Below are positions 12,716 to 27,242 of a stretch of 64,000 nt of DNA, piece after piece. How positions within the stretch are numbered: position 1 is the stretch's first letter; each line of letters starts with the position of its first letter. Both the position numbers and the translations under genes were made by a program. The notes below the pieces were generated by a model. The model was not told the DNA's origin and made no database searches. It saw nothing but the letters and a program-made list of their open reading frames with translations. Origin of the DNA: Planctomycetota bacterium (GTDB taxonomy: Bacteria; Planctomycetota; UBA1135; GCA-002686595); the NCBI GenBank assembly GCA_028823345.1, contig JAPKBR010000016.1:1-64000 (forward strand), given 5' to 3'.

Positions 12716-13861
12716 ATGACAAACAACAAAACAATCAACTTGGAAGCCCTGGACGTCAAGCTCGACGATTGGGCATCCGAACCAGAGAAATTTGCTGGAC
12801 GCGTTCGGCGGCTGGCCCGCAAATGGAACCGGGAGGGGCTTCCGCTTGAGATCAAGACTCCCAACTCTTGGAAGACCCAGCGCAAGGCCCTCAGCAGAGT
12901 CTCCACCATCGAAGAGCAGCTACGAGCGGAGATCGATTCGATCACCATCATGGAACGGGACGAGGAAGCCCGCCACGCCCGTAGGATCGAGTTTGCCCGG
13001 GTTCGGTTGGAGCTAAGTCTGGAAGAGCACGGCCTTGAGGCAGCGGATCTGGACGGACAGATTCGCTACTGCCCGGAGACCTTTAGGGATGTGGAGCCCA
13101 CCGACTGCAAACTGCCCAATGACCTTTGCCACCGTTGGAAGGAGCTCCACGCCCTGCGCACAGAATTGGTGGAACGCAACCTGTATCTGGCCCTGATCAA
13201 CGTGGAGCGCTATGCACACTTTGGCGTGCCCCGGCTGGACTTGATTCAGGACGGTTCCGCAGCCCTATTCCGGGCGGTGGACGGATTTGATTGGCGCCGC
13301 GGCCTTTTGTTCCGCACCTATGCTGTGCACTGGCTGAACCAGGCATTCCGCAGTCACCTTTATAACCACGGCCAAACCGTGCGCATTCCCGTGTACTTGC
13401 AGAAGGCTATTCGCCATGTGAAGGCCGCGACCGGCAAGCTTGGGGACACCAACGCTTCCCCCGCGAGCATTGCTGAACTGACCGGCATGCGCCTGGGTTT
13501 GGTCGAGAGCGCCTTGGAGGCAAGCCGTTCGACGCTCTCCATTGATGCATCATCAGGAGAGGGCGAGGGGAACGGCCTAGCCGACTCCCTGGAAGAGAGT
13601 GATCCCGAGGGCATTTACCGGTCCTCGATGGAAGATGTCACTCTGCGACAGGGCCTAGGGCAAGCCCTTGGGCAACTGTCGGACCGAGAGCGCATGGTTT
13701 TGGAGCGTCGATTCGGTTTGGGGACTTCGGAGGAGCACACCCTGTCCGAGTTGGCCGGCGAATTGGGCGTCAGCCTTGAGCGCGTGCGTCAGATTCAGAT
13801 GCGAGCTCTGGGCAAACTGCGCACCCCTACCCTGCGCAAGACGGTCGAACCTTTCATTTGA
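12716..13861 (+). CDS. Divergent sigma-70 family RNA polymerase sigma factor
   Basis: The 381-residue protein contains region 2 (ERNLYLALINVERYAHFG, RLDLIQDGSAALFRAVDGF, LLFRTYAVHWLNQAF, TVRIPVYLQKA; about 150-235). A diverged region 3 (ASPASIAELTG) and region 4 with its helix-turn-helix (ALGQLSDRERMVLERRFGLG, then ERVRQIQMRALGKLR; about 310-372) follow. The N-terminal 130 residues do not show the usual region 1.2 motif, although EEARHARRIEFARVRLEL resembles the helix that precedes region 2 in primary sigmas. Wrong aromatic spacing in region 2.3 relative to housekeeping RpoD suggests an alternative group 2/3-like sigma. GGAG lies about eight bases before the ATG. It is monocistronic by appearance, with a long upstream region. 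Confidence 0.88.
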   Translation: MTNNKTINLEALDVKLDDWASEPEKFAGRVRRLARKWNREGLPLEIKTPNSWKTQRKALSRVSTIEEQLRAEIDSITIMERDEEARHARRIEFARVRLELSLEEHGLEAADLDGQIRYCPETFRDVEPTDCKLPNDLCHRWKELHALRTELVERNLYLALINVERYAHFGVPRLDLIQDGSAALFRAVDGFDWRRGLLFRTYAVHWLNQAFRSHLYNHGQTVRIPVYLQKAIRHVKAATGKLGDTNASPASIAELTGMRLGLVESALEASRSTLSIDASSGEGEGNGLADSLEESDPEGIYRSSMEDVTLRQGLGQALGQLSDRERMVLERRFGLGTSEEHTLSELAGELGVSLERVRQIQMRALGKLRTPTLRKTVEPFI

Positions 13862-13960: not shown

Positions 13961-15103
13961 ATGAAGATTCCCCGGATGCCCCCTGACTCCATTCAACGTG
14001 TTGTGCACGTGGACCAGGGCGCGGGAGTACAGGACCCCGAGACCCAGAAGCCCGATACTCAAGATCCCAGCACCCGGGCCAGGCCCGCTCGAGCCCTCGC
14101 CCACGGTTCCTTGCGCACCACCTTTATGGATCTGATCGGGCGCCCTCCCTTCGCTCGTGAATATGAGCAGTGGCTCGGCCTCGGTCGAGACAAGCTGCTG
14201 GACGACCTTTTGGGTGGTGAGGAGTTTTGGGGTCACTGGTGGAGTGAGCAGCTCTACTACTTTCTGTTGGTCGACAACTTCCAGCCGGTTGCTCGGGCCA
14301 CAAAGGAGATTCCGGGCAAGTTGGCGGAGGGTCGCATGGATTATCGCACGGCCTTGCACAGGATCGCTTTGACTTCCAGCTTCGACCAGAGGAATCCTGG
14401 AGCGGACACTTTTGTCACCGTGGTCATGGAGCAGTTTTGCGGCCTAGTGGTCCAGAAGAATCGGCGCGATCTAGAGAGCGGCAAGAGGGCTTATGATGGG
14501 GGCAAGGGCAACTTCCTCGGAACCCTGGTGAACAACCAATCGGAGGTGATCGAGGTCTGCGTCAATCACTCCAAGGCGTCCAAGCACTACCTGGAGCGTG
14601 AGTACCAGCGCCTTATGCACGGAGACCCGGACAGTAAAGTGCTCGCCAATCAGGCCCGCCGTTTGCACCGGGACACTTGGAAATACTTGGCCACCACGCG
14701 GGATTGGCTGTTGTCTGAGGAATACAGCCAACGTCTTGAACGGCTTGAGCCCAAATCCAACACCCTCTTCCTGAAGGGTCTCTTCGTAGATCTCCTAGAT
14801 CGTTTGCCCACGGAGGATGAGTTGGAGCCCATGCGGACAGCCCTTGACGGGTTGGCCGATCCGCGCCCCTTGCGCTCGGTCGTCGTGCGCTTATTGCTGG
14901 ATTCTGGGCGTGCGAAGATTCCTGAAAAGGCGGCAATTACAGATCCCACACGTTGGGTCGCTGAGAAGTTTCAGCGCTTTCTGGGGCGCGAAGCCTCCCC
15001 AGATGAACTGCGGGTCTTTGTGGGCACCTTTCACGCGGAGGACTGCCGTCCGGAGACGATCCTTTATGCTTTCCTTTCTCATCCCGAATACCAAAAATAC
15101 TAG
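13961..15103 (+). CDS. DUF1549-related protein, first gene of a cytochrome-linked trio
   Basis: The start at ATG 13961 is preceded by GGGAG at a good distance, and gives 380 residues. The region LRTTFMDLIGRPPFAREYEQWL, followed by LLGGEEFWGHWWSEQLYYFLL, resembles the DUF1549 domain of planctomycete proteins. The later blocks RLPTEDELE and FLGREASPDELRVF, ending in SHPEYQKY, resemble the DUF1553-like tail. No signal peptide is visible, unlike the next two products. It lies 37 bases before the DUF1501-like gene, the usual partner of such proteins. The biochemical function of the family is not established to my knowledge. Confidence 0.6.
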   Translation: MKIPRMPPDSIQRVVHVDQGAGVQDPETQKPDTQDPSTRARPARALAHGSLRTTFMDLIGRPPFAREYEQWLGLGRDKLLDDLLGGEEFWGHWWSEQLYYFLLVDNFQPVARATKEIPGKLAEGRMDYRTALHRIALTSSFDQRNPGADTFVTVVMEQFCGLVVQKNRRDLESGKRAYDGGKGNFLGTLVNNQSEVIEVCVNHSKASKHYLEREYQRLMHGDPDSKVLANQARRLHRDTWKYLATTRDWLLSEEYSQRLERLEPKSNTLFLKGLFVDLLDRLPTEDELEPMRTALDGLADPRPLRSVVVRLLLDSGRAKIPEKAAITDPTRWVAEKFQRFLGREASPDELRVFVGTFHAEDCRPETILYAFLSHPEYQKY

Positions 15104-15140
15104 GGACCAGTACAATTGAACCACTTCGGGGCAACTCAAC

Positions 15141-16289
15141 ATGGAAACATTCAATCTACATCGACGTTCTCTAATTAGAGGCGCAGCCCTTGGCGCAGCT
15201 GGTGCACTTTCACCCGCACTCGCCGGGGCTCACTTGTTGCCCTTGCAGAAGGGCCGCAAAACCAAGCGGGTTGTCTTGGTTGCTTTTGCAGGAGGCGTGC
15301 GAACCCGCGAGACCTTTGGCACCCCGGAGAACATCCCGAACATGCGCCAGATGGCGGATGAGGGTGTGCTGTACACCAACGTGGCCACGGCCAACTTGGG
15401 GCACTTCGGCGCAACCATGTCGATTTTCACTGGCATCAGTGAGCCCCGCGGAATCCGAGAGAACGCTAGGGGCGAAGACCCGACTCTCTTTGAGTACTTG
15501 CGTAAGGGCCTTGACATGCCGAAGGAGGACATTTGGGTTACCACCACCGGTGGAGCCCAGCAGGTGAACTACTCCTACTCGGTACATCCCGAGTACGGCT
15601 CCAAGTACGGCGCGAACATTTTGGACGGCGAGGGCATTTTCAACGCAGAGTTCAAGCAGTTGCTGGATACCTGGGGCATGCCCAAGTCCATGGGAGACAA
15701 GGAGAAGGCCCTGCTGGATCAGCTTCGCAAGGGCGTGGGCGGAGGCGTCGACGCGGTGCGTGAGGCGGAACGCTTGGCGCGCGTGGAAGAGTACATACTG
15801 AAGGAACTCACCCAGGGCACGACTGACATCACCGGCGCTGCGGCTGGGGATCGTAAAGCTCTGCGCCTGGCGCGGAACCTCTTGTCTCTATTCCGGCCGA
15901 AGGTCGTGGGAGTCGTGTTGCAAAATGCGGACGTGGCCCATGGGTCCTACAACGCCTATGCGGAAGTTGTGCGTCAGAACGACGCGGCGATCGGTGAGTT
16001 GGTCTCAGCAATCCGCGAGGATGAGGAACTGGCTGCATCCACTGCTGTCATCGTGTTGCCCGAATTTGGCCGGGACCGGGATCTCAATTCCCGACGCGGG
16101 TTGGATCATGGGGATGGGTCTCCCGATTTGCGCCGAGTGACTTGCTTGGCCTGGGGCCCGGACTTCAAGCGGGGCGTCGAGATCGACAGCCAGCAGCGCA
16201 CCACCGATGTTGTAGGCACGGTCTGTGAGTTGTTCGGTACTACAGCTCCGCTTACTCGGGGAGGCCGCTTGAGAGGCCTCTATTCTTGA
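15141..16289 (+). CDS. Tat-exported DUF1501-like protein (alkaline-phosphatase superfamily)
   Basis: The N-terminus has a twin-arginine pattern (RRSLIRG) followed by a hydrophobic Ala/Gly stretch, so export by Tat is likely. The body resembles DUF1501/sulfatase-type alkaline-phosphatase-fold proteins, with KRVVLVAFAGGVRTRE near the N-terminus and AVIVLPEFGRDRDLNSRRG, then LDHGDGSPDLRRV near the end; the last contains a conserved-looking DHGDG metal-type motif. 382 residues. It follows the DUF1549-like gene, and its stop codon overlaps the TTG start of the large cytochrome gene, so the two are probably translationally coupled. Hydrolytic activity is not shown; many DUF1501 proteins have no known substrate. 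Confidence 0.65.
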   Translation: METFNLHRRSLIRGAALGAAGALSPALAGAHLLPLQKGRKTKRVVLVAFAGGVRTRETFGTPENIPNMRQMADEGVLYTNVATANLGHFGATMSIFTGISEPRGIRENARGEDPTLFEYLRKGLDMPKEDIWVTTTGGAQQVNYSYSVHPEYGSKYGANILDGEGIFNAEFKQLLDTWGMPKSMGDKEKALLDQLRKGVGGGVDAVREAERLARVEEYILKELTQGTTDITGAAAGDRKALRLARNLLSLFRPKVVGVVLQNADVAHGSYNAYAEVVRQNDAAIGELVSAIREDEELAASTAVIVLPEFGRDRDLNSRRGLDHGDGSPDLRRVTCLAWGPDFKRGVEIDSQQRTTDVVGTVCELFGTTAPLTRGGRLRGLYS

Positions 16290-19200
16290 GCCCCGTGGCC
16301 TTCGCTCAAACTCTCACACAGTCCCCCGTGCGGTTGCGCCGGGGCCTGTGGATTTTTGTGTCTATCGTCCTCGTCGTGCCGTTTCTGGTAGAGCGAGTTC
16401 CCGCGGAGTTCGCCCAGGGAGACCCACAAGGTCGCGATCAATTGCAGATCGAACCTCATCCTGTGCCCACCAAGCCAGCGAGTGGGGGTGAGGGGTCGGA
16501 TGGTTGCTTGCACTGTCATGAAGGCGTAGAGGACATGCACCCTTGGTTGGCCCTTTCCTGTGTGGATTGTCACGGGGGTGATGCCAGCACGAAGAACAAG
16601 CTAGAGGCCCATGTGCTCAGCACCTCTGACCGTGATACGGACGAGCGCGTGGCTCCGCTCACCAAGGACTTGAGTTGGCGACGCTTCAGGAATCCCTCCG
16701 ACCTGCGCGTGATTGGCGTCACTTGCGGTACATGCCATGGGGAATCTTGCAAGGACCTGCTCTTGTCTTTGCATGGCACCACTGCCGGGCACCTGTCCGA
16801 CGGGTTCTATGAAATCGGCCAGATCCCAGAAAAGGGTTCCCTATTCGGAGTCTTCCCCGTGTCGGGGCATTTGACCGATGAAGGTGAGGTAGACCGCCTG
16901 ATCCAGCCGCCCGCTTTTTCCACATCTGACGACCCTAAGCGCCTCGCCAGTCATTTCCCTGACCTGGTGCGGAAAGAGTGTATGCAATGTCACCTTTGGT
17001 CCGAAGGTCGCGGGCTGCGAGGTCGCACCGGATTCGATGGGGACTATCGCGGCGCAGGTTGCGCGGCTTGTCATGTGCCCTATGCGTCCACGGGGCTTTC
17101 GGATACAGCGGATCGGTCCATTTCAAAAACTGAGCCGGGTCACCCGCGCCGACACGTGATGACCGCCGCCCCCAGTACTCAGACCTGCGTGACCTGTCAC
17201 TACGGAGACGCATCAATTGGCTTGCAATTCCGAGGCTTGTCCCAGTTACCTCCCAACAGCGCAGGCGGCCCGGACATCGAGGGCACCACGGATGTGCGCT
17301 TGAACCAGACGTTCTATGTGAAGGACAACTCCCTGACCCCGCCGGATGTACACCATGAGTTCGGCATGCATTGCGTGGACTGCCATGGGCGCGGGGATGT
17401 GATGGGGGACGGGGCCTTGCACGGAAGTATGGAGCACGCGGTGGCCATTTCCTGCGAATCGTGCCATGGCACCTTTGATGCCCGGGCAAGCATGACTACC
17501 GCCCGTGGTGAAGCCCTGACCAATGTCTGGCTTGATGGGGACAAGGTCCTACTGAAGAGCAAGGTCACGGGGAAAACCCACTCGATCAAGCAGGTCATGG
17601 ATGTGATTGATCCAGAGCATCCCGATCACATTCCCGCAGCCATGGGAGCGATGAACGGCAATCACGGAAAACTCGAGTGCTATGCCTGCCACGCGGGATG
17701 GAATGTGAACTTTCTTGGTTTTCACTTTTACCGCAACGAAAGTTTAACGCAGATGGACCTGATTTCTGGGCGGCGCACTAAGGGGCGCGTAACAACCCAG
17801 GAGAAAGTGTTCGCCAGCTGGAAGTCGTTCTATGCGGGCTTGAACGAAAAGGGTCGGATCGCGCCCTACATGACCGGTTTCGCCACAATGGGGACCGTTG
17901 ACGGGGAAGACGGCACCCGCATTCTGGACCAAGCAATGCCGGAGACCGCGGCCGGGCTGTCGGGAATGACCATGATCCACCACCAGGTGCACACCACCCG
18001 CCCGACGGCTCGTGGATGTGTGGAGTGCCACCGTTCCGGCGGGACCTGGGGTTTGGGCACCGCGAATTTCAAACTGGGCCGTCAAGTAGCCTTTGTAGCG
18101 GATCGACGTGGTATCGAGGCCGTTGCTCTCAATCGGCAGAACTTGGCGGGGTCGATCCCCCTTGGCAAGTTCGTGCTTCCCGATGTAGTTGACTTGGAGT
18201 TGGACTGCGATCCACTTCAGGGCTATGGCAAAATCCTCTATGCCAGTGAGGGGGGGCGCGGAATCCACGTGTTCGATGTGTCTGACCCACGGGCCTTCAC
18301 TCGGCTGGCATTCATCGAAACCATTTCGCCCCGTGGAATGGCTAAAGGGGGGGACTACCTCTTCATTGCTGACGGTATCGGCGGCTTACGCGTGGTGGAT
18401 ATTAGCGATCCTGCTGCGCCTAAAGCAGTGGGGCAACTGCCCCTATTCGATGCGCAAGAGGTTGAGGTGCGTTGGCCCTATGCCTATGTGGCGGATGGCA
18501 TTGGAGGCATGGCGATCGTTGATATTCGCGAACCCATTCGGCCGCGACTGGTAAGTGGTGTTAGCTGGAAAGTGGCCGCGGGGCAGACCATGTCGGCCAT
18601 CGATCTGGACCTCTTGTTTCAGTACAGCCGGCCTCAGGTTCTGCGTGGAGACGTACCGGCACCCTACCGCAGCGATGCGCGCAACTTGTGCGCCGTCGTG
18701 GACGAGAGCGCGGGTTTGATTCTGATCGACGTAACAGAACCGAGTCATCCCGAGGTGGTTTACCCAAGCACCAGTCGTAGAACCCGGGCGGCTCAAAGGC
18801 AAGGTGGGCTCTTCCGCGGGCTCGCTCTGCGTAGCAAGGTCGACCCAGCGCCGCCCCAGGGCGGCAAGCCAGCGTCGGAAACGGATTATGTTTATCTGTT
18901 GGAGGAGCGCACCCAGGGCAATGGGGATCAGGTTTCTTTCATGCGTTCGATTGATGTGGGGAACCCTAAAAATCCCCGGGTGGTTGACTCTCTTCGTGTG
19001 GAGGGATCTTCCGAGTCTATGTTCCACCTGTCGATCTACAACCAGCCGTTCCTGCAGCCCTTGGCGCTGATTGCGGGGGATGAGGGAGTCAGCGTGGTGG
19101 ACCTTTCCAATTCCGAAGGCCTCGAGTCAGGCGGTGTCCTGATGAGCATCCGCAACGCCTATGCGATTGCGGTGGAGGAATTCCCCCTCGATGCGATGAT

Positions 19201-20272
19201 TGACCCTTCTGGCCGGCGACTGAAGGACGTGAGTCACGAGGGATCGCGATGGCTCCTGCCGCGTGAAGTTGAACGCATCCTTGATGTTCCGGGAGAGATC
19301 CTAGGCACGATCAAGGACGGGGAAGTGGCCGCGCCCATTCCGGGGCACAGCGCCAGACTGTTCTTCGCTCGTTATGACGTGAGTCGCGACGGGCTCCTGA
19401 CTGGCGAAGAGCTGCAGCGTGCAGGCAGTGTCTTGGATCGTAACGGTGACGGCCGAGTGACCTTGGCCGAGGCGGCGGATGTGGGGCAGCTGTTCAAAAA
19501 GCCAAGAACGTCCGTACCCGAGTCCGACCAGGTGGTCTTTGGTGAAACGCGCACGGACCCAGATGGTGATCTTGCGCGATTGCTCGATGGGCAAGATGGC
19601 CGTATCCATGACCGTGACCGGGATGGACGCCTGGATCGCAAAGAAATGTCCCGGGCCCTGTTCGCAGCTTTGGATTTGAATGGGGATGGACGCTTGAACC
19701 GGGGCGAGCTCTCGCGGCACCCCGGAAAGGCACGACAAATTCGATACGGTGACGAAGGCGCCCTTGATGCTTTCAGTCGCCGTGACTTGAACAACGGCGG
19801 AACCATTGCCATCCGGGAGTTCAATATTCTTGATCCCGAGTGGGATGCGCTTGATTCGGATTCCGATGGGGGCGTGCAGTTGCCCGTGGCGCGCAAGGAG
19901 CGAAGCCGGAACAACGCCGGGCAGCAGCTGCCGTCCGAGTGGCCTGTGCGTCGGGCCATAGCCATCCCCTTGCCTCCGCTTCTGGAGGAGGGCGCCCTTG
20001 AGGCTTTCGACAAGAACGGCGACACGGATCTCACGCGGCGGGAGCTGCGAGACCGTGAAGATCTGTTGGACATGGCCGACAGAGATTATTCAGGCCTGCT
20101 GGAAAGGGAGGAGTGGATGCGACTCGAGGCCGCGGCCCGGGGTGGCGCGGTGGATTCCCTGGCTGACAGCTTCTTGGCTCGCTGGGACCTGGACGGAAGT
20201 GGCGAGGTCGAAGAGGCGGAACTGCCGTCCTTTGCTCGTCCCATCCTTCGACAGCGCGGCAAGCGCCGTTAG
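16286..20272 (+). CDS. Decaheme cytochrome c with LVIVD repeats and EF-hands
   Basis: The 1328-residue protein starts at TTG 16286, sharing bases with the preceding stop. A membrane segment lies at about 21-36, suggesting a membrane-anchored periplasmic protein. Ten CxxCH heme motifs occur, with first Cys near residues 74, 92, 147, 232, 259, 301, 363, 390, 465 and 578. Residues about 600-990 carry LVIVD-type repeats (GGLRVVDISDPAAPK, GGMAIVDIREPIRP), probably a beta-propeller. From about 1025 to 1315 there are around nine EF-hand-like loops (DRNGDGRVTLAE, DLNGDGRLNRGE, DLDGSGEVEEAE), two of them degenerate. The protein joins electron transfer with calcium-binding and repeat modules. Its electron partner is unknown; the preceding two genes are its likely partners. 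Confidence 0.9.
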   Translation: MSPVAFAQTLTQSPVRLRRGLWIFVSIVLVVPFLVERVPAEFAQGDPQGRDQLQIEPHPVPTKPASGGEGSDGCLHCHEGVEDMHPWLALSCVDCHGGDASTKNKLEAHVLSTSDRDTDERVAPLTKDLSWRRFRNPSDLRVIGVTCGTCHGESCKDLLLSLHGTTAGHLSDGFYEIGQIPEKGSLFGVFPVSGHLTDEGEVDRLIQPPAFSTSDDPKRLASHFPDLVRKECMQCHLWSEGRGLRGRTGFDGDYRGAGCAACHVPYASTGLSDTADRSISKTEPGHPRRHVMTAAPSTQTCVTCHYGDASIGLQFRGLSQLPPNSAGGPDIEGTTDVRLNQTFYVKDNSLTPPDVHHEFGMHCVDCHGRGDVMGDGALHGSMEHAVAISCESCHGTFDARASMTTARGEALTNVWLDGDKVLLKSKVTGKTHSIKQVMDVIDPEHPDHIPAAMGAMNGNHGKLECYACHAGWNVNFLGFHFYRNESLTQMDLISGRRTKGRVTTQEKVFASWKSFYAGLNEKGRIAPYMTGFATMGTVDGEDGTRILDQAMPETAAGLSGMTMIHHQVHTTRPTARGCVECHRSGGTWGLGTANFKLGRQVAFVADRRGIEAVALNRQNLAGSIPLGKFVLPDVVDLELDCDPLQGYGKILYASEGGRGIHVFDVSDPRAFTRLAFIETISPRGMAKGGDYLFIADGIGGLRVVDISDPAAPKAVGQLPLFDAQEVEVRWPYAYVADGIGGMAIVDIREPIRPRLVSGVSWKVAAGQTMSAIDLDLLFQYSRPQVLRGDVPAPYRSDARNLCAVVDESAGLILIDVTEPSHPEVVYPSTSRRTRAAQRQGGLFRGLALRSKVDPAPPQGGKPASETDYVYLLEERTQGNGDQVSFMRSIDVGNPKNPRVVDSLRVEGSSESMFHLSIYNQPFLQPLALIAGDEGVSVVDLSNSEGLESGGVLMSIRNAYAIAVEEFPLDAMIDPSGRRLKDVSHEGSRWLLPREVERILDVPGEILGTIKDGEVAAPIPGHSARLFFARYDVSRDGLLTGEELQRAGSVLDRNGDGRVTLAEAADVGQLFKKPRTSVPESDQVVFGETRTDPDGDLARLLDGQDGRIHDRDRDGRLDRKEMSRALFAALDLNGDGRLNRGELSRHPGKARQIRYGDEGALDAFSRRDLNNGGTIAIREFNILDPEWDALDSDSDGGVQLPVARKERSRNNAGQQLPSEWPVRRAIAIPLPPLLEEGALEAFDKNGDTDLTRRELRDREDLLDMADRDYSGLLEREEWMRLEAAARGGAVDSLADSFLARWDLDGSGEVEEAELPSFARPILRQRGKRR

Positions 20273-20389
20273 GGCCCCGCAGGTGGTAGATGAGCCCCAT
20301 TTTGGGCGTATTTGTGCTCTCAGGGTCACAGAATTGCGAGCCAGATCAGGGCCCGGGATCGTGCCTGTGATAACCTCCGCGGCTGTCCC

Positions 20390-21322
20390 ATGGACCTCAA
20401 ACCCCCTCTCACCAACCCGACCGCCTTGGGCAGTCGCAAACCCAGCTGGCTTAAGGTGCCACTGCCGGGAGGCGAGGGCTATACGCGCTTGCGCAAACTG
20501 ACCCGCGAGCTCAAGCTGAACACCGTTTGCGAAGAGGCCCGTTGCCCCAACATCGGCGAGTGCTGGAAGGGTGACCGAGCCACCATGACCCTCATGGTTT
20601 TGGGGGATGAGTGCACCCGGCGCTGTCGCTTTTGCGCGGTCAAGACTGTCGATCGCGCGGCTGCCCCCGACCCTGATGAGCCTGAGCACGTGGGCACGGC
20701 GGTGGCGGCCCTGAATCTGGACTATGTGGTCATCACCAGTGTGGATCGGGACGATTTGGATGACGGAGGTTCGGGACACTATGCCGAGTGTGTTGAATCG
20801 ATCCGCCAACATTCCCCACGCACAATTATCGAGACCTTGATCCCCGATTACACAGGCGCCCAACTCGCCACCTTGATGGAGTCGAAACCTGACGTGCTGG
20901 CCCACAATGTGGAGGTTGTATCGCGTCTGCAGCGGCGCATTCGGGATCCACGCTGTTCCTTCGAGCGCTCCCTGAAAACCCTGCGCGAGGCCAAGGATCA
21001 ATCCTCGGTGGTTTTCACCAAGTCCTCTTTGATGCTGGGCCTTGGCGAAACCCAGGCCGAGGTCGAGGAGGCCATGGCCCTTCTGCGGTCTACTGATGTG
21101 GATTTCTTGACCCTCGGCCAGTATCTGCGCCCCTCTCCGAAGCACGCCCCCGTTCGAGAGTATGTCGCCCCCGAACAATTTGACGCCTATGACCGGCTTG
21201 GACGGGAAATGGGTTTCCGTCAAGTAGCCTCGGGCCCCTTGGTTCGGTCCAGTTACAAGGCCGGCGAGTTGCAAGCAGCTCACCTTGTGCGTGAGCGGCG
21301 CAAAGAGGAAATCTCCAAATGA
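20390..21322 (+). CDS. lipA: Lipoyl synthase
   Basis: LipA is a radical-SAM enzyme that inserts two sulfurs into protein-bound octanoyl groups. Both iron-sulfur motifs are complete: the auxiliary cluster Cys47, Cys52 and Cys58 (CEEARCPNIGEC), and the radical-SAM cluster Cys75, Cys79 and Cys82 (CTRRCRFC). The C-terminal RSSY element is present (VRSSYKAGE). Numbering is from ATG 20390, which starts where homology begins; a GTG at 20312 in frame would add 26 unrelated residues. The stop overlaps the start of the first E1alpha gene by four bases, so this is the head of a lipoate/2-oxoacid dehydrogenase operon. Confidence 0.97.
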   Translation: MDLKPPLTNPTALGSRKPSWLKVPLPGGEGYTRLRKLTRELKLNTVCEEARCPNIGECWKGDRATMTLMVLGDECTRRCRFCAVKTVDRAAAPDPDEPEHVGTAVAALNLDYVVITSVDRDDLDDGGSGHYAECVESIRQHSPRTIIETLIPDYTGAQLATLMESKPDVLAHNVEVVSRLQRRIRDPRCSFERSLKTLREAKDQSSVVFTKSSLMLGLGETQAEVEEAMALLRSTDVDFLTLGQYLRPSPKHAPVREYVAPEQFDAYDRLGREMGFRQVASGPLVRSSYKAGELQAAHLVRERRKEEISK

Positions 21323-22431
21323 CCGAAACTTTGAAGATGATCGAAGCGGACGGGTCCGCTCCTAGCTTTAACGGTGCCCTGGACGATAAGGCGCTGGTGT
21401 ACTGCTATCGCACGATGTTGATGGTGCGTGCGTTCGACGACATCTGCATGAAGTTGCAGCGCTCTGGAAGAATCGGTTTTTCGATTCCAAACAAAGGCGT
21501 GGAGGCGACCCAGGTCGGAGCCGCAAGCGCTCTGCGCTCGACGGACTTCTTCTTCCCCAGCTATCGGGATTTCGGCATGGCCTTGCATCACGGTGCTGAG
21601 CCGGTGGAGATGATGCACAACATGTTCGGCAATGCTTCTGATTCGGCACGTGGCCGTCAGATGCCGGTGCACTTTTCATTCACAAAGCCTCTGCGTTTCT
21701 TTTCGATCAGTTCGCCCATCGGAACCCACCTTCCGCAAGCGGTCGGGGCGGCGTTTGCCTCCCAGGCGCAGGGCAAGGATGACGTGAGCCTTGCAAGTTT
21801 CGGAGATGGTGGCACATCCAGTACGGGCTTCCATAGTGCCTTGAACATGGCGGGTGTTTGGAAGGCCCCGGTGATCTTCCTGTGCCAAAACAATGGTTGG
21901 GCGATCTCGTTGCCCTCCAGCGGTCAAACGGCCTCGGATGGCTACGCGATCAAGGCCAAGGCCTACGGAATGCCTGGAGTGACTGTGGACGGTAACGACC
22001 TGTTGGCAGTCAACCGGGCCGTCAGCGAGGCCGCCGAGCGCGCTCGCGCAGGTGAGGGCCCTACTCTGATTGAAGCTTTCACCTATCGCATGGGGGGGCA
22101 CTCCACTTCGGACGATCCCACCAAGTATGTGCCGGCCGAGGAACTCGAGAAGTGGGCCAAGAAGGACCCGGTGTTGCGTATGCAGCGCTTCCTGGCCCAA
22201 CGGGGGCTTTGGGACGAGGCCCTTGAAGAGACCTTGCAGGCCGAGTGCGCTGCCGAGGTGGCCGCGGCCGCCAAGGAGGCTCAGGCTACCCCTGGCCCGA
22301 CCCTGGAAACGATTTTCAGCGATGTGTACGAGACCCTGCCCAACCATCTGCGCCGACAGGGCGAGCAGGCATTCGACCTCGCAGCACGGAAAGGCGACGC
22401 CGATGCTGGTGGCGGTGCCTTCCCTCTTTGA
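21319..22431 (+). CDS. 2-oxoacid dehydrogenase E1 alpha subunit (copy 1)
   Basis: E1 decarboxylates a 2-oxoacid with thiamine diphosphate and acylates the lipoyl arm of E2. The 370-residue protein shows the TPP motif starting at GDG (162-164), through GFHSALNMAGVWKAP to NNGWAIS. The phosphorylation-loop region is YRMGGHSTSDDPTKY (256-270). It starts inside the lipA stop (ATGA), and the E1 beta gene follows 35 bases after its stop. The alpha/beta arrangement and length fit the branched-chain or the alpha2beta2 pyruvate type; substrate is not decidable. A paralogue of almost equal length lies 2.3 kb downstream in the same operon. Confidence 0.95.
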   Translation: MTETLKMIEADGSAPSFNGALDDKALVYCYRTMLMVRAFDDICMKLQRSGRIGFSIPNKGVEATQVGAASALRSTDFFFPSYRDFGMALHHGAEPVEMMHNMFGNASDSARGRQMPVHFSFTKPLRFFSISSPIGTHLPQAVGAAFASQAQGKDDVSLASFGDGGTSSTGFHSALNMAGVWKAPVIFLCQNNGWAISLPSSGQTASDGYAIKAKAYGMPGVTVDGNDLLAVNRAVSEAAERARAGEGPTLIEAFTYRMGGHSTSDDPTKYVPAEELEKWAKKDPVLRMQRFLAQRGLWDEALEETLQAECAAEVAAAAKEAQATPGPTLETIFSDVYETLPNHLRRQGEQAFDLAARKGDADAGGGAFPL

Positions 22432-22466
22432 TTGATCAACGCTTTTCGAGCGACACAACAAACACC

Positions 22467-23441
22467 ATGGCAATACTCACCCTGCTCCAAGCGGTCAATG
22501 ACGCGCTGCACACCAAGATGCGCGATGATGAGCGCGTTACAGTCTTTGGCGAAGACGTAGGCCCTAAGGGCGGCGTCTTCTTGGCTACCGAGGGATTGAC
22601 TCGGGAATTTGGCGAGCGCCGCTGCTTTGATACGCCTCTCTCCGAGGACGGAATCGTTGGCGCCGCGGTGGGTATGGCGGTCAATGGCCTGCTGCCCGTT
22701 TGTGAGATCCAATTCCAGGACTTCATCTTCCCTGCCTTTGACCAGATTGTCAGCGAAGCTGCCAAGCTGCGCTACCGGTCTGGCGGCCAGTACACCGCGC
22801 CCATGGTGATCCGTACGCCCTATGGTGGCGGCATTCGCGGGGGGCTTTACCACAGTCAGTCGGGCGAGGCTTACTTTGCCCACACGCCTGGTTTGAAGGT
22901 GGTCATTCCCTCCACGCCATATGACGCCAAGGGGCTTTTGATCGCTGCGATCGAGGATCCGGATCCGGTTCTGTTCCTTGAGCCCAAAGCCCTCTACCGT
23001 TCACTGAAGGGCGAAGTTCCTGAGGGCAGTTACACTGTGGATCTGTCCACCGTTCGCACAGCGCGTGAAGGTTCCGATGTGACCGTGTTCTGTTATGGAG
23101 CCATGGTTCCGGTTTGCGAGAAAGCCGCTGCAACGGCTGCCGAAGGCGGCATCGAAACCCACGTGGTGGACCTGCGCACTCTGTTGCCTCTCGATGAAGA
23201 AGCGGTGCTGGATGCGGCCAAGCGTACTGGGCGCGTGGTCGTGGTCCATGAGGCTCCGCGATTCTGCGGATATGGTGCCGAGATTAGCGCCTTGATTGCT
23301 GAGAATGCGATCGAGTACATGGAAGCCCCGGTTCGCCGCGTAACGGGTTTCGACACTCCCTTTCCAAACACCCTAGAACACCACTACATGCCAGATGAGC
23401 GTCGAGTCCTCGATGCCATCGAGGGCGTGGCATCCTTCTGA
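22467..23441 (+). CDS. 2-oxoacid dehydrogenase E1 beta subunit
   Basis: This is the transketolase-like partner of E1 alpha. Typical blocks are VFGEDVGPKGGVFLATEGL, RCFDTPLSEDGIVGAAVGMA, IQFQDFIFPAFDQIVSEAAK, MVIRTPYGGGIRGG and VVVHEAPRFCGYGAEI. The start at ATG 22467 gives 324 residues, the usual size. The same frame stays open upstream inside the E1 alpha gene but without homology. It is the only E1 beta gene in the operon, although two E1 alpha genes are present, so it may serve both. Confidence 0.95.
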   Translation: MAILTLLQAVNDALHTKMRDDERVTVFGEDVGPKGGVFLATEGLTREFGERRCFDTPLSEDGIVGAAVGMAVNGLLPVCEIQFQDFIFPAFDQIVSEAAKLRYRSGGQYTAPMVIRTPYGGGIRGGLYHSQSGEAYFAHTPGLKVVIPSTPYDAKGLLIAAIEDPDPVLFLEPKALYRSLKGEVPEGSYTVDLSTVRTAREGSDVTVFCYGAMVPVCEKAAATAAEGGIETHVVDLRTLLPLDEEAVLDAAKRTGRVVVVHEAPRFCGYGAEISALIAENAIEYMEAPVRRVTGFDTPFPNTLEHHYMPDERRVLDAIEGVASF

Positions 23442-23461
23442 TCTCTGGAGACCTTGCAACC

Positions 23462-24703
23462 ATGATTGAATTCAAACTACCTGATATTGGCGAAGGCACA
23501 GCTGAAGGCGAGATCGTCAAGTGGCTCGTGTCCACCGGAGATGCGGTCAAAGAGCACCAGGCCATCGTCGAGGTGATGACGGACAAGGCCACGGTCGAGG
23601 TGCCTGCACCTGCCGATGGCACGATCACCGAATTACTCGTGGGGGAAGGAGACACTGTCCCTGTGGGGGACGTGATCTTCCGCTTGGACAATGGAGGGGG
23701 GGCACCCGCACAGGCGGCGTCCCCAGAACCCGCTGCCGCCCCGAGCGCACCGAGCGCACCGACTGCCCCGAGCGTCCCGAGCGCCCCGACTGCTGTTGCA
23801 GCTCAGCCTGAGCCCAGCGGCGGAAAGGTCTTGGCCGTTCCGAGCGCCCGTCGTGTGGCCCGGGAGCTGAGCGTGGACCTTGGCACCGTAGCCGGTAGCG
23901 GCCGCAACGGTGTCATTCGCCGGGCCGATGTGGAGGCAGCCGCTACGGGTGGCGCAGTTGCCCAATCTAGTCATTCCGTCGTTGCCCCGAGCACAGCCCA
24001 AGCGCAGCGGATTCCTTTCCGCGGCGTGCGTCGTAAGATTGCTGAGGCCATGGTGCGCTCTTCCCAAACTGCGGTTCACTTCACCATCGTTGAAGAGGTG
24101 GACGTGACGGACCTGGTGCGTGTGCGCCAGAAGGCCAAGGCGATTGGTGCCGAGCAGGGCATCAAGGTGACCTTCATGCCGTTCATTATGAAGGCTGTGG
24201 CTAATGGTCTGATGAAGTTCCCCATGCTCAATGGTCACCTAGATGAGCAAGCCGAAGAAATCGTGCTTCCCGGAACCGTCAATCTTGGTATTGCTACGGA
24301 CACCCCGAATGGTTTGATCGTGCCGGTGATTTCCCAAGTGGAGTCCAAAGGCCTCTTGCAGCTCGCAGCCGAGTTGGGCGACCTGAGTGAGCGAACCCGC
24401 GCGGGTCGGGTGCGACCCGAAGAACTGCGTGGTAGCACTTTCTCGATCACCAACGCCGGCAACATTGGTGGCACTATAGCGACGCCGATCATCAACTTCC
24501 CCGACATCGCCATCCTTGGTGTTCACCGCATCGTCAAGCGACCCGGCGTGGTGGATACGCCGGAGGGCGAGGTGATCGAAGTGCGCCAGTACATGAACTT
24601 CTCCTGCAGCGTGGATCACCGCCTTGCAGACGGAGCCGATGCGGCGCGTTTCGTGGCTTACCTGCGTCAAATTCTGGAAGAGCCTGCCCTGTTGTCCCTC
24701 TGA
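23462..24703 (+). CDS. 2-oxoacid dehydrogenase E2 (dihydrolipoamide acyltransferase)
   Basis: The 413-residue E2 has one N-terminal lipoyl domain with the lipoylated lysine at position 42 (MTDKATVEV), then a mobile linker rich in Ala, Pro and Ser (about 80-122). A peripheral-subunit-binding domain follows (VPSARRVARELSVDL, GSGRNGVIRRADVEA). The C-terminal acyltransferase core ends in the catalytic HRLADG (HxxxDG) motif after FSCSVD. This forms the core to which E1 and E3 bind. It lies between E1 beta and the second E1 alpha with short gaps. The lipoyl lysine is a substrate for the LipA and LipB of the same operon. Confidence 0.96.
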   Translation: MIEFKLPDIGEGTAEGEIVKWLVSTGDAVKEHQAIVEVMTDKATVEVPAPADGTITELLVGEGDTVPVGDVIFRLDNGGGAPAQAASPEPAAAPSAPSAPTAPSVPSAPTAVAAQPEPSGGKVLAVPSARRVARELSVDLGTVAGSGRNGVIRRADVEAAATGGAVAQSSHSVVAPSTAQAQRIPFRGVRRKIAEAMVRSSQTAVHFTIVEEVDVTDLVRVRQKAKAIGAEQGIKVTFMPFIMKAVANGLMKFPMLNGHLDEQAEEIVLPGTVNLGIATDTPNGLIVPVISQVESKGLLQLAAELGDLSERTRAGRVRPEELRGSTFSITNAGNIGGTIATPIINFPDIAILGVHRIVKRPGVVDTPEGEVIEVRQYMNFSCSVDHRLADGADAARFVAYLRQILEEPALLSL

Positions 24704-24713
24704 TAAGCACCCT

Positions 24714-25823
24714 GTGACTGGCCTTCAACAGATCCTGAACAAGGAAGGTGTGCTTGTGGGAGAGGCGCCTGACCTTTCCGACGAGCAGTTCGTTGAACTG
24801 TTGCGGAACATGATCATGATCCGCTCCCTCGATGGGCGGATGCTGAAATTGCAGCGCGCCGGACGAGTCGGATTTGTCGGAACGGCTACGGGTTTGGAAG
24901 CCTCCCTAGTGGGTGCTGCTGCTCCACTGCTGCCCAAAGACTGGATGTGGTCTGGTCTGAGAGAGGGCGGCGCCGCCATCACGCGTGGCTTGCCCCTCTT
25001 TGAATATGTGGCGCAGATGTACTGCAACTCGAACGACTCTGCAAAGGGTCGCCAGATGTGCAATCACTTTCAGCACAAGGGTTCGAACTATCCCAGTTGG
25101 TCTTCGGTGATCGGCACCCAGATCACCCACGGTGTTGGCGCTGCCTACGCCAGTGCTCGTAGGGGCGAAGACGTGGTGCATTCGATTCACTTCGGTGATG
25201 GAGCCACTAGTTCCAATGGTTTTCACTCAGGCTTGAATCTCGCGGGCGTCTGGAAGGCGCCTTGCGTTTTTGTCTGCATCGACAATGGTTGGGCGATTTC
25301 CGTCAGCTCAGCCGAGCAAACCGCGGCTGAATCCTACGCGGACAAGGCTCAGGCCTATGGCATGCCCGGTGTAACGGTGGACGGTAACGATGTGCTGGCG
25401 GTTTACGCCGAGATGCAGACGGCGGTGGAGCGAGCACGCGCTGGGGGCGGCCCCAGTTTGGTCGTGCTCAAGACCTATCGGATGCTTGGGCACTCGAGCT
25501 CTGACGACCCCAGCAAGTACCGGGATGATGCGGAAGTTCAATCCTGGGCCGAGCGTGATCCTCTTAAGCGCTATGAGGCCTTCTTGATCGAGCGCGGCTT
25601 GATCGATTCGTCCGAATGCGCGGCACAAGAAAAGGCTATCGTGGCGGAGATCGACGAGGTCATCCACGAGCAAGAAGCCGCCCCTCCCTTCCCCCTGCGA
25701 TCCCTGGTGGAAGATGTCTACAGCGAGGTGCCCCGTCACCTGCGCGTGCAGTTCAACCAATTCCTAGAAGTTGCCGAACGCCGTGGTGATGCAACCCGCG
25801 GCGATGGCGCCTTCCCCCTTTGA
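24714..25823 (+). CDS. Second 2-oxoacid dehydrogenase E1 alpha subunit (copy 2)
   Basis: This paralogue of the E1 alpha at 21319 has 369 residues, against 370 for copy 1. The two share the QRxGRxGF element at the same position (47-54), the xGRQM element at 111-115, a TPP motif starting at GDG 161-163 and running to NGWAIS, the YRMLGHSSSDDPSKY loop, and even the final GDGAFPL. I start at GTG 24714, ten bases after the E2 stop; the open frame upstream overlaps E2. No second E1 beta accompanies it. It may use the same beta subunit with another 2-oxoacid, or form an alternative E1. Loop sequences around 55-90 and 118-132 differ most between copies, the likely substrate-facing regions. Confidence 0.93.
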   Translation: MTGLQQILNKEGVLVGEAPDLSDEQFVELLRNMIMIRSLDGRMLKLQRAGRVGFVGTATGLEASLVGAAAPLLPKDWMWSGLREGGAAITRGLPLFEYVAQMYCNSNDSAKGRQMCNHFQHKGSNYPSWSSVIGTQITHGVGAAYASARRGEDVVHSIHFGDGATSSNGFHSGLNLAGVWKAPCVFVCIDNGWAISVSSAEQTAAESYADKAQAYGMPGVTVDGNDVLAVYAEMQTAVERARAGGGPSLVVLKTYRMLGHSSSDDPSKYRDDAEVQSWAERDPLKRYEAFLIERGLIDSSECAAQEKAIVAEIDEVIHEQEAAPPFPLRSLVEDVYSEVPRHLRVQFNQFLEVAERRGDATRGDGAFPL

Positions 25824-25841
25824 GCGAGAGCCCCAATTCAC

Positions 25842-27242
25842 ATGAGTCAAATTCGTAAGGTTGTTGTTATCGGTGCCGGACCCGCAGGATATGTCTGCGC
25901 AATCCGTCTCGCCCAGTTAGGCCAGCAAGTGGTCGTCGTTGAGAAGGAAGCTCTTGGGGGTACGTGCCTAAACGTGGGCTGTATTCCTTCCAAGGCCATG
26001 ATTGCGGCGGGTTCATTGATGGATAAGGTCAGCCATGCCCACAGCATGGGCATCACCGTAGAGGGCGTGGAGCTCGATCCGGTCAAGTTGGTCGAGTGGA
26101 AGAACGTTATCGTCGGGCGTTTGACCGGGGGCGTGGGTAGCCTGCTGAAGAAGCACGGCTGCGAGGTGATGATGGGGCAAGCCCGCTTGGTGGACAAGAA
26201 CACGGTCGAAGTCAAAAGCGAAAAGGGAACTGAGCGAGTGACCTGTGATGACATCGTGATTGCAACCGGTTCGATCCCCATCGAGATCCCGGGATTTGCG
26301 TTTGACGAAGATTCGGTTTGGTCTTCCACCGGTGCTCTTTCACCCACTACGATCCCCAAGCACCTAGTGGTGATTGGGGGCGGTTACATCGGCCTAGAGA
26401 TGGGCATGATGTACAACCACCTGGGTTCAAAGGTGACCGTGTTGGAGGCCACGGGAGGCGCACTCCCGGGTCAAGACCTGGACTGCGTCAAGGTCATCGA
26501 ACGTTCGCTCAAGAAGAGTAAGGTCAAGCTGCTGGTGAACACGTTTGCCAAGAAGTGGGCCAAGTCTGGCGACGGGTTGGTCGTGACCATCGAGAAGAAC
26601 GGCAAGCAAGAGGAAATCGTTTGCGACCAGATTCTTTCTACGGTGGGGCGACGACCCTATACCGAGGGCTTGGGACTTGAAAACGTTGGGCTCAGCACGA
26701 ACGAGCGCGGCTTCATCCAAATTGACAAGCAGATGCGCACTAGCGTGCCCAATATCTCTTGCGTGGGCGATATTGCGGGTCAGCCGATGTTGGCCCATAA
26801 AGGCAGCAAGGAAGGGCTCGTGGCTGCGGCGGTGATCGCCGGTCAACCAGAGGAGTACGACGTGCGCTGTGTTCCCGCTGTCATTTTCACATCACCGCAA
26901 ATGGCGTCTGTGGGCATGACCGAGGACCAGGCGAGGGAAGCGGGACACGAGCCCGTCACTGGGTCATTCCCGTTCAAAGCATCTGGCCGAGCAATGACCC
27001 TGCAAGAGACCGATGGTATGGTTAAGGTTGTCTCAGACGCCAAGTCTGACTTAATCCTAGGGGTGCACATGGTTGGCCCCGAGGTCACCGAGTTGATCGC
27101 CGAGGCAGCTCTCGCCATCGAGATGGGAGCCACGAGCGAAGACCTCGCGCGCACAATTCATGCCCACCCGACCCTGCCCGAAGCCTTGATGGAAGCCGCT
27201 GAAGCGGTGCACAACATGGCCGTACATATTTACCAGGCTTGA
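25842..27242 (+). CDS. lpdA: Dihydrolipoamide dehydrogenase (E3)
   Basis: E3 reoxidises dihydrolipoyl groups and makes NADH. The 466-residue protein has the N-terminal FAD motif GAGPAGY, the redox-active disulfide Cys42 and Cys47 in GGTCLNVGCIPSKA, the NAD motif GGGYIGLEMG, and the C-terminal active-site His-Glu pair in HAHPTLPEAL. Length and order are standard. It lies 18 bases after the second E1 alpha and four bases before the lipB start, so it is translated within the same operon and completes the complex. Confidence 0.97.
   Translation: MSQIRKVVVIGAGPAGYVCAIRLAQLGQQVVVVEKEALGGTCLNVGCIPSKAMIAAGSLMDKVSHAHSMGITVEGVELDPVKLVEWKNVIVGRLTGGVGSLLKKHGCEVMMGQARLVDKNTVEVKSEKGTERVTCDDIVIATGSIPIEIPGFAFDEDSVWSSTGALSPTTIPKHLVVIGGGYIGLEMGMMYNHLGSKVTVLEATGGALPGQDLDCVKVIERSLKKSKVKLLVNTFAKKWAKSGDGLVVTIEKNGKQEEIVCDQILSTVGRRPYTEGLGLENVGLSTNERGFIQIDKQMRTSVPNISCVGDIAGQPMLAHKGSKEGLVAAAVIAGQPEEYDVRCVPAVIFTSPQMASVGMTEDQAREAGHEPVTGSFPFKASGRAMTLQETDGMVKVVSDAKSDLILGVHMVGPEVTELIAEAALAIEMGATSEDLARTIHAHPTLPEALMEAAEAVHNMAVHIYQA

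Follow-up and report, generated by a model that had tools for sequence, protein, structure and literature searches.

About every ninth planctomycete genome sampled has the three genes described here (g1, g2 and g3, adjacent in the planctomycete studied), almost always as a complete set. This points to a so far undescribed redox machine located outside the cytoplasm. Planctomycetes have many gene pairs of DUF1549/DUF1501 type, none with a known function. The near-perfect co-occurrence described here links a relative of these pairs to a ten-heme electron carrier and gives a concrete handle on function.

The locus and the predicted cytochrome

The window (the whole stretch of 64,000 nucleotides that was analysed) contains all three open reading frames of the set, which a previous sequence-only reading had described as coding for a DUF1549-like, a Tat-type DUF1501-like and a decaheme/LVIVD/EF-hand protein. 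The features are as follows.

13961..15103, + strand: g1, 380 aa, all-helical, DUF1549/PSCyt2-, DUF4214- and phycobilisome-linker-like
15141..16289, + strand: g2, 382 aa, RR (Tat-type) signal, divergent DUF1501-like, predicted alkaline phosphatase superfamily fold
16286..20272, + strand: g3, 1328 aa, signal, ten-heme ExtM-like region, LVIVD propeller, EF-hands
16343..16390, + strand: g3 signal sequence, hydrophobic core at residues 20-35 (KD16 maximum of 2.71, reached at residue 20)
16505..18031, + strand: ten CxxCH motifs of g3, residues 74, 92, 147, 232, 259, 301, 363, 390, 465 and 578
18083..19294, + strand: LVIVD beta-propeller region of g3, residues 600-1003
19376..20221, + strand: nine EF-hand loops of g3, residues 1031-1312

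A sigma-70 family gene (12716-13861, + strand) is located directly 5' of g1, and counterparts with 50-69% identity precede the set in other genera of the window's family (L035, L047, L051, L052, L056, L057 and L131). The set is followed by lipA and pyruvate dehydrogenase (PDH) genes (20312-27242, + strand), a synteny that recurs in families f1 and f47 (L110, L112, L118).

The TGA stop codon of g2 (16287-16289) overlaps the g3 reading frame, which opens with TTG at 16286. The exact start of g3 is uncertain: GTG at 16295, nine bases downstream, aligns with the GTG used in L033 and, going by the relatives, appears equally good. Translational coupling of g2 and g3, previously claimed as such, is no more than plausible from the overlap.

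Pattern counts and Pfam matches bore out the description of g3 as a 1328-residue protein with ten CxxCH motifs, LVIVD repeats and about nine EF-hand loops. The ten CxxCH motifs compare with an expectation of 0.01 and a maximum of 1 in 2000 shuffles. The LVIVD match had an E-value of 1.3e-18 (PF08309, 66.4 bits, gathering score 20.2), and EF-hand families matched with E-values of 1e-12 to 1e-16 (EF-hand_1, 59.1 bits, gathering score 25.4). Nine EF-hand loops were counted with a relaxed and seven with a strict pattern (shuffled mean 0.03, maximum 2). A DNA pattern search yielded 311 CxxCH-coding sites in the window's genome and 102 in the control; among the sites listed for the genome, g3 is the only cluster of at least four within 2 kb. 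By the rule of at least four CxxCH motifs on an exported protein, g3 with its ten motifs and its signal sequence is a predicted multiheme c-type cytochrome. Its profile matches to solved structures were short stretches of nitrite reductases.

All ten CxxCH motifs were invariant in 57 of the 57 near-complete g3 orthologues, and so were exactly ten other histidines (residues 85, 109, 163, 169, 286, 290, 356, 460, 566 and 569), with His 480 and His 223 nearly invariant. Ten is the number of additional histidines required for ten bis-His hemes. This conservation suggests that the hemes of g3 are probably all bis-His ligated and makes a role in electron transfer alone more likely than a catalytic one.

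The EF-hand part is fused to the cytochrome in families f1 and f47. In many other families the next gene downstream encodes it as a separate protein, which usually has a signal sequence of its own. Judged from these arrangements, the EF-hand part appears to be optional in the cytochrome polypeptide and a separate exported gene in most other families, and the set is more aptly seen as four parts encoded by three or four genes. Because the EF-hands are dispensable from the polypeptide, it is no more than conjecture that the redox function depends on calcium.

Most of g3 has been lost in G007 (L045:9740-10790), where two heme motifs are followed by a stop and the EF-hand tail remains; g1 and g2 are still open reading frames in this genome despite the loss. 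A third architecture was seen in L121 and L123, where bacterial Ig/cadherin-like repeats precede a ten-heme ExtM-like region, without g1 and g2.

Co-occurrence of the three genes in Planctomycetota

A search with g2 retrieved orthologues from across the window's family and from some related families; one contig scan gave close relatives only. Profiles of the cytochrome, g1 and g2 were run on 392 sampled Planctomycetota genomes, the search being confined to this phylum. Orthologues were accepted at E<1e-100 for the cytochrome and E<1e-90 for g1 and g2; these thresholds (1e-90 to 1e-100) were set at a clear gap in the score lists, after the lists had been viewed. The genomes were largely draft assemblies of mixed completeness, with f1 the only large family deeply sampled.

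The cytochrome, g1 and g2 were each detected in 46 genomes, and the holders of the set were spread over 13 families. A search for the three-gene order across the phylum had been proposed in the sequence-only reading, which named cytochrome homologues always lacking the DUF pair as a refutation. The order proved widespread, all three genes being present in 45 of the 392 genomes and in 45 of the 47 that had any of them. Partial sets were found only in G265 (67% complete) and G209 (76% complete), and the refuting pattern of a cytochrome that always lacks the pair was not seen. Fisher's test for co-occurrence of the cytochrome and g2 gave p of about 1e-56, a value that ignores the relatedness of the genomes.

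Of the loci with enough sequence to tell, almost all had g1, g2 and g3 in this order and on one strand. The same stretch as the cytochrome contained g2 in 58 and g1 in 53 of the 59 loci; two of the six loci without g1 are cut off by the end of the contig, and the genomes of the remaining four have g1 on another contig. In G076 contig C38 has the g1-g2 pair and contig C70 the cytochrome, and in G087, G112, G131 and G165 g1 is on a different contig from g2 and the cytochrome. In families f35 and f24 the genes have moved apart, yet all are present. That all three are retained even where they are not closely linked is the best indication that they share a function.

Tree distances of the three proteins were correlated (r=0.89-0.91 overall, 0.72-0.78 between families), and most families were monophyletic in the trees. 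Apart from G202, with a weak sister pair, the genomes with only a more distant heme-domain relative (G123, G173, G326, G391 and those with the 12-heme type) were missing from the g2 list, so the pair follows this particular cytochrome orthologue.

That the genes lack a common function and have simply stayed neighbours through shared descent we consider highly improbable. Most families do inherit the set vertically and the downstream lipA/PDH genes are likewise conserved in some of them, but presence is patchy across the 13 families with nearly no partial sets, and the genes are co-retained on different contigs in the five genomes named above. A common redox or calcium-dependent surface function had been suggested for the set. 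Its redox part appears well supported by the co-occurrence in 45 of 47 genomes, the retention of unlinked genes and the parallel divergence of the proteins. Its surface and calcium parts fared less well: the sequence supports export of g3 but cannot place it at the surface, and the EF-hands are separable.

Two diverged copies of the whole set are present in G039 (L060 and L062) and in G139 (L105 and L106). L059 and L062 have extra genes between g2 and g3, none with a Pfam match.

Relation to DUF1549/DUF1501 pairs, sulfatases and the Ext system

The window g1 scored 15.6 bits with DUF1549 (PSCyt2, PF07583), below the Pfam cut-off of 29.8. DUF1549 matches at E<=0.05 were obtained for 27 of 29 g1 homologues (best 3.2e-10), and two longer relatives (L100 and L106) were above the cut-off. 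This suggests that g1 is a remote DUF1549 homologue rather than a typical member. The matches of the g1 homologues to DUF1549, DUF4214 and phycobilisome-linker models were all weak; the phycobilisome linker (PF00427, sequence cut-off 28.7) matched 18 of 29 at E<=0.05. In the predicted structure (pLDDT 88, pTM 0.82), whose residues 1-40 are predicted to be disordered, g1 models as tandem phycobilisome-linker-like domains. Nearly all top Foldseek matches in the PDB were phycobilisome linkers, weak by E-value (0.0086 upwards), with a TM-score of up to 0.6 on a single linker domain. The likeness is one of predicted fold: identity between g1 and the linkers is ~10% and phycobiliproteins are absent, so that a linker role of g1 would be an analogy.

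The Tat-type signal proposed for g2 held up, as the RR motif, which is accompanied by the N-terminal hydrophobic stretch expected of a Tat substrate, was invariant in 29 of 29 homologues; Pfam TAT_signal matched 16 of the 29 at E<=0.05. The match to DUF1501 (PF07394, gathering score 27 bits) was marginal, with 27.6 bits by hmmscan and 23.1 in the genome search.

The window's genome also contains at least eight canonical DUF1501 genes (340-524 bits, E 1e-101 to 1e-157, compared with about 1e-5 (5e-5) for g2). At each of four canonical loci a large partner with two CxxCH motifs adjoins the DUF1501 gene; two of these partners were scanned, and both are PSCyt1-PSCyt2-PSD1 proteins. The window pair resembles the canonical PSCyt1-PSCyt2(DUF1549)-PSD1(DUF1553) plus DUF1501 arrangement in that a DUF1549-type gene is followed by a Tat-type DUF1501 gene and c-type heme is part of the system. 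It differs in that g1 lacks PSCyt1 and PSD1, and in that the hemes reside in a separate ten-heme protein, whereas the canonical large protein carries its two CxxCH motifs itself. The window g1 and g2 barely aligned with one canonical pair. The earlier identification as a known DUF1549/DUF1501 pair could thus not be upheld, g1 falling short of its family cut-off and g2 scoring far below the canonical copies of the same genome; the two probably represent a remote, distinct lineage.

PSCyt2 genes have been reported to adjoin a family of unknown nature, and nothing was known of the function of PSCyt genes (PMC5615132). A literature search for papers naming both DUF1501 and DUF1549 found none, and the literature searched gave no function for such pairs. 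In the sister g1-g2 pairs of families f63 and f15, g1 mostly has one CxxCH motif and, in those scanned, a PKD domain; the stretches read around these pairs showed no decaheme protein. Heme motifs and such pairs thus go together more widely than earlier supposed, and the decaheme partner is what sets this g1-g2 pair apart. Because most sister and canonical pairs carry c-type heme motifs of their own, the data suggest that DUF1549/DUF1501-type pairs belong to electron transfer in general.

Foldseek matches of the g2 model were sulfatases and phosphodiesterases (best E 7e-11, probability 1.00, TM about 0.5), placing its predicted fold in the alkaline phosphatase superfamily. Similarity to this superfamily (S1 sulfatases, nucleotide phosphodiesterases) extends to the C-terminal sequence. 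In alignments with solved S1 sulfatases, the position of the catalytic cysteine corresponds to an invariant His88 of g2, EFGR falls at the C-terminal metal motif, and other metal-ligand positions appear changed. With this histidine at the nucleophile position and EFGR at the metal motif, ordinary sulfatase chemistry is doubtful for g2.

The same residues weigh on the idea of a sugar- or glycan-processing complex, in which g2 would act like a sulfatase or phosphodiesterase on envelope or imported polysaccharide and g3 would drain the oxidation electrons or regulate. It could draw on the sulfatase/NPP fold, on PSCyt genes found elsewhere near sulfatases and with carbohydrate-binding modules (PMC5615132), and on the F5/8 type C domain of one canonical PSCyt protein in the window's genome. 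However, no carbohydrate-active gene is conserved beside the set, and this reading is unlikely.

The nearest curated family of g3 is ExtM (NF040943) of the Geobacter extHIJKLMNOPQS cluster (E 3.7e-58). The match covers model positions 19-511 of 599, suggesting that ExtM and the ten-heme region of g3 are distantly related. Identification as ExtM proper was rejected, since the score was 197 bits against an equivalog cut-off of 800 and g3 has ten hemes, not twelve; it also differs in its propeller and EF-hand fusion and in its partners. The ExtO profile detected no protein above cut-off in 12 genomes carrying the set, and its only match in the window's genome was g3 itself. Membership in the Ext selenite/tellurite operon was rejected on these grounds. 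A planctomycete version of that reduction system, for which the homologous heme region would speak, is improbable also because the Ext cluster as described has no counterparts of g1, g2, the propeller or the EF-hands (PMC5877670). ExtM-like proteins of other Planctomycetota (L125, L126, L132-L134, L136) have a related heme region (187-232 bits with the g3-family profile), but they have twelve hemes, and their loci gave no propeller, EF-hand or g1/g2 match.

In Geobacter, the outer-membrane fraction was among those in which ExtM was found (PMC5877670). Together with the export signals that g3 and the separate EF-hand proteins carry, this would fit an electron conduit at the outer surface or outside the cell, in which the EF-hands and the propeller mediate adhesion. 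Such a conduit is doubtful, though somewhat less so than glycan processing: no porin is conserved beside the set, and the N-terminus of g3 was found to have no lipobox cysteine.

A possible electron-transfer complex

We favour, at about even chances of being right, one extracytoplasmic electron-transfer complex with g3 as heme relay, g1 as scaffold and g2 on the substrate or acceptor side. Exported and loaded with ten bis-His c-type hemes, g3 would relay electrons as an ExtM-like decaheme wire, its propeller docking partner proteins and its EF-hands, or the separate EF-hand protein of relatives, binding calcium for stability or attachment. The two linker-like domains of g1 would keep g2 beside g3, and g2, leaving folded via Tat, would most likely bind the acceptor or substrate side. 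The respiratory chain would supply the electrons, which g3 would pass on to an extracytoplasmic acceptor. Gene order, co-occurrence and heme/His conservation were observed, and the folds were assigned by homology or prediction; the physical association, the heme loading, the direction of electron flow and the roles of g1, g2 and calcium are inferred.

No porin, quinol oxidase or reductase was found conserved next to the set in the neighbourhoods compared, thus neither donor nor acceptor is indicated. The sister pairs of f63 and f15 without a decaheme protein indicate that the pair can act without one. Points against a complex are the weak fold matches of g1 and its missing export signal: between the upstream stop codon and the domain no hydrophobic segment was present in the window g1, nor any such stretch in its genus. 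Fusions of g1 in other families, either with an FHA domain ahead of a hydrophobic segment or with a signal, one CxxCH and a PKD domain, place its C-terminal part outside the cytoplasm there. The window g1 may either stay inside the cytoplasm or, as a guess, leave together with the Tat-exported g2.

That g1 is a true linker, ordering many decaheme proteins (and g2) into rods or sheets, is a very long shot. If true, it would mean a scaffolded heme array, an electron conductor built on the phycobilisome principle. An N-terminal FHA domain was present in the g1 relatives L100, L105, L120, L147 and L161.
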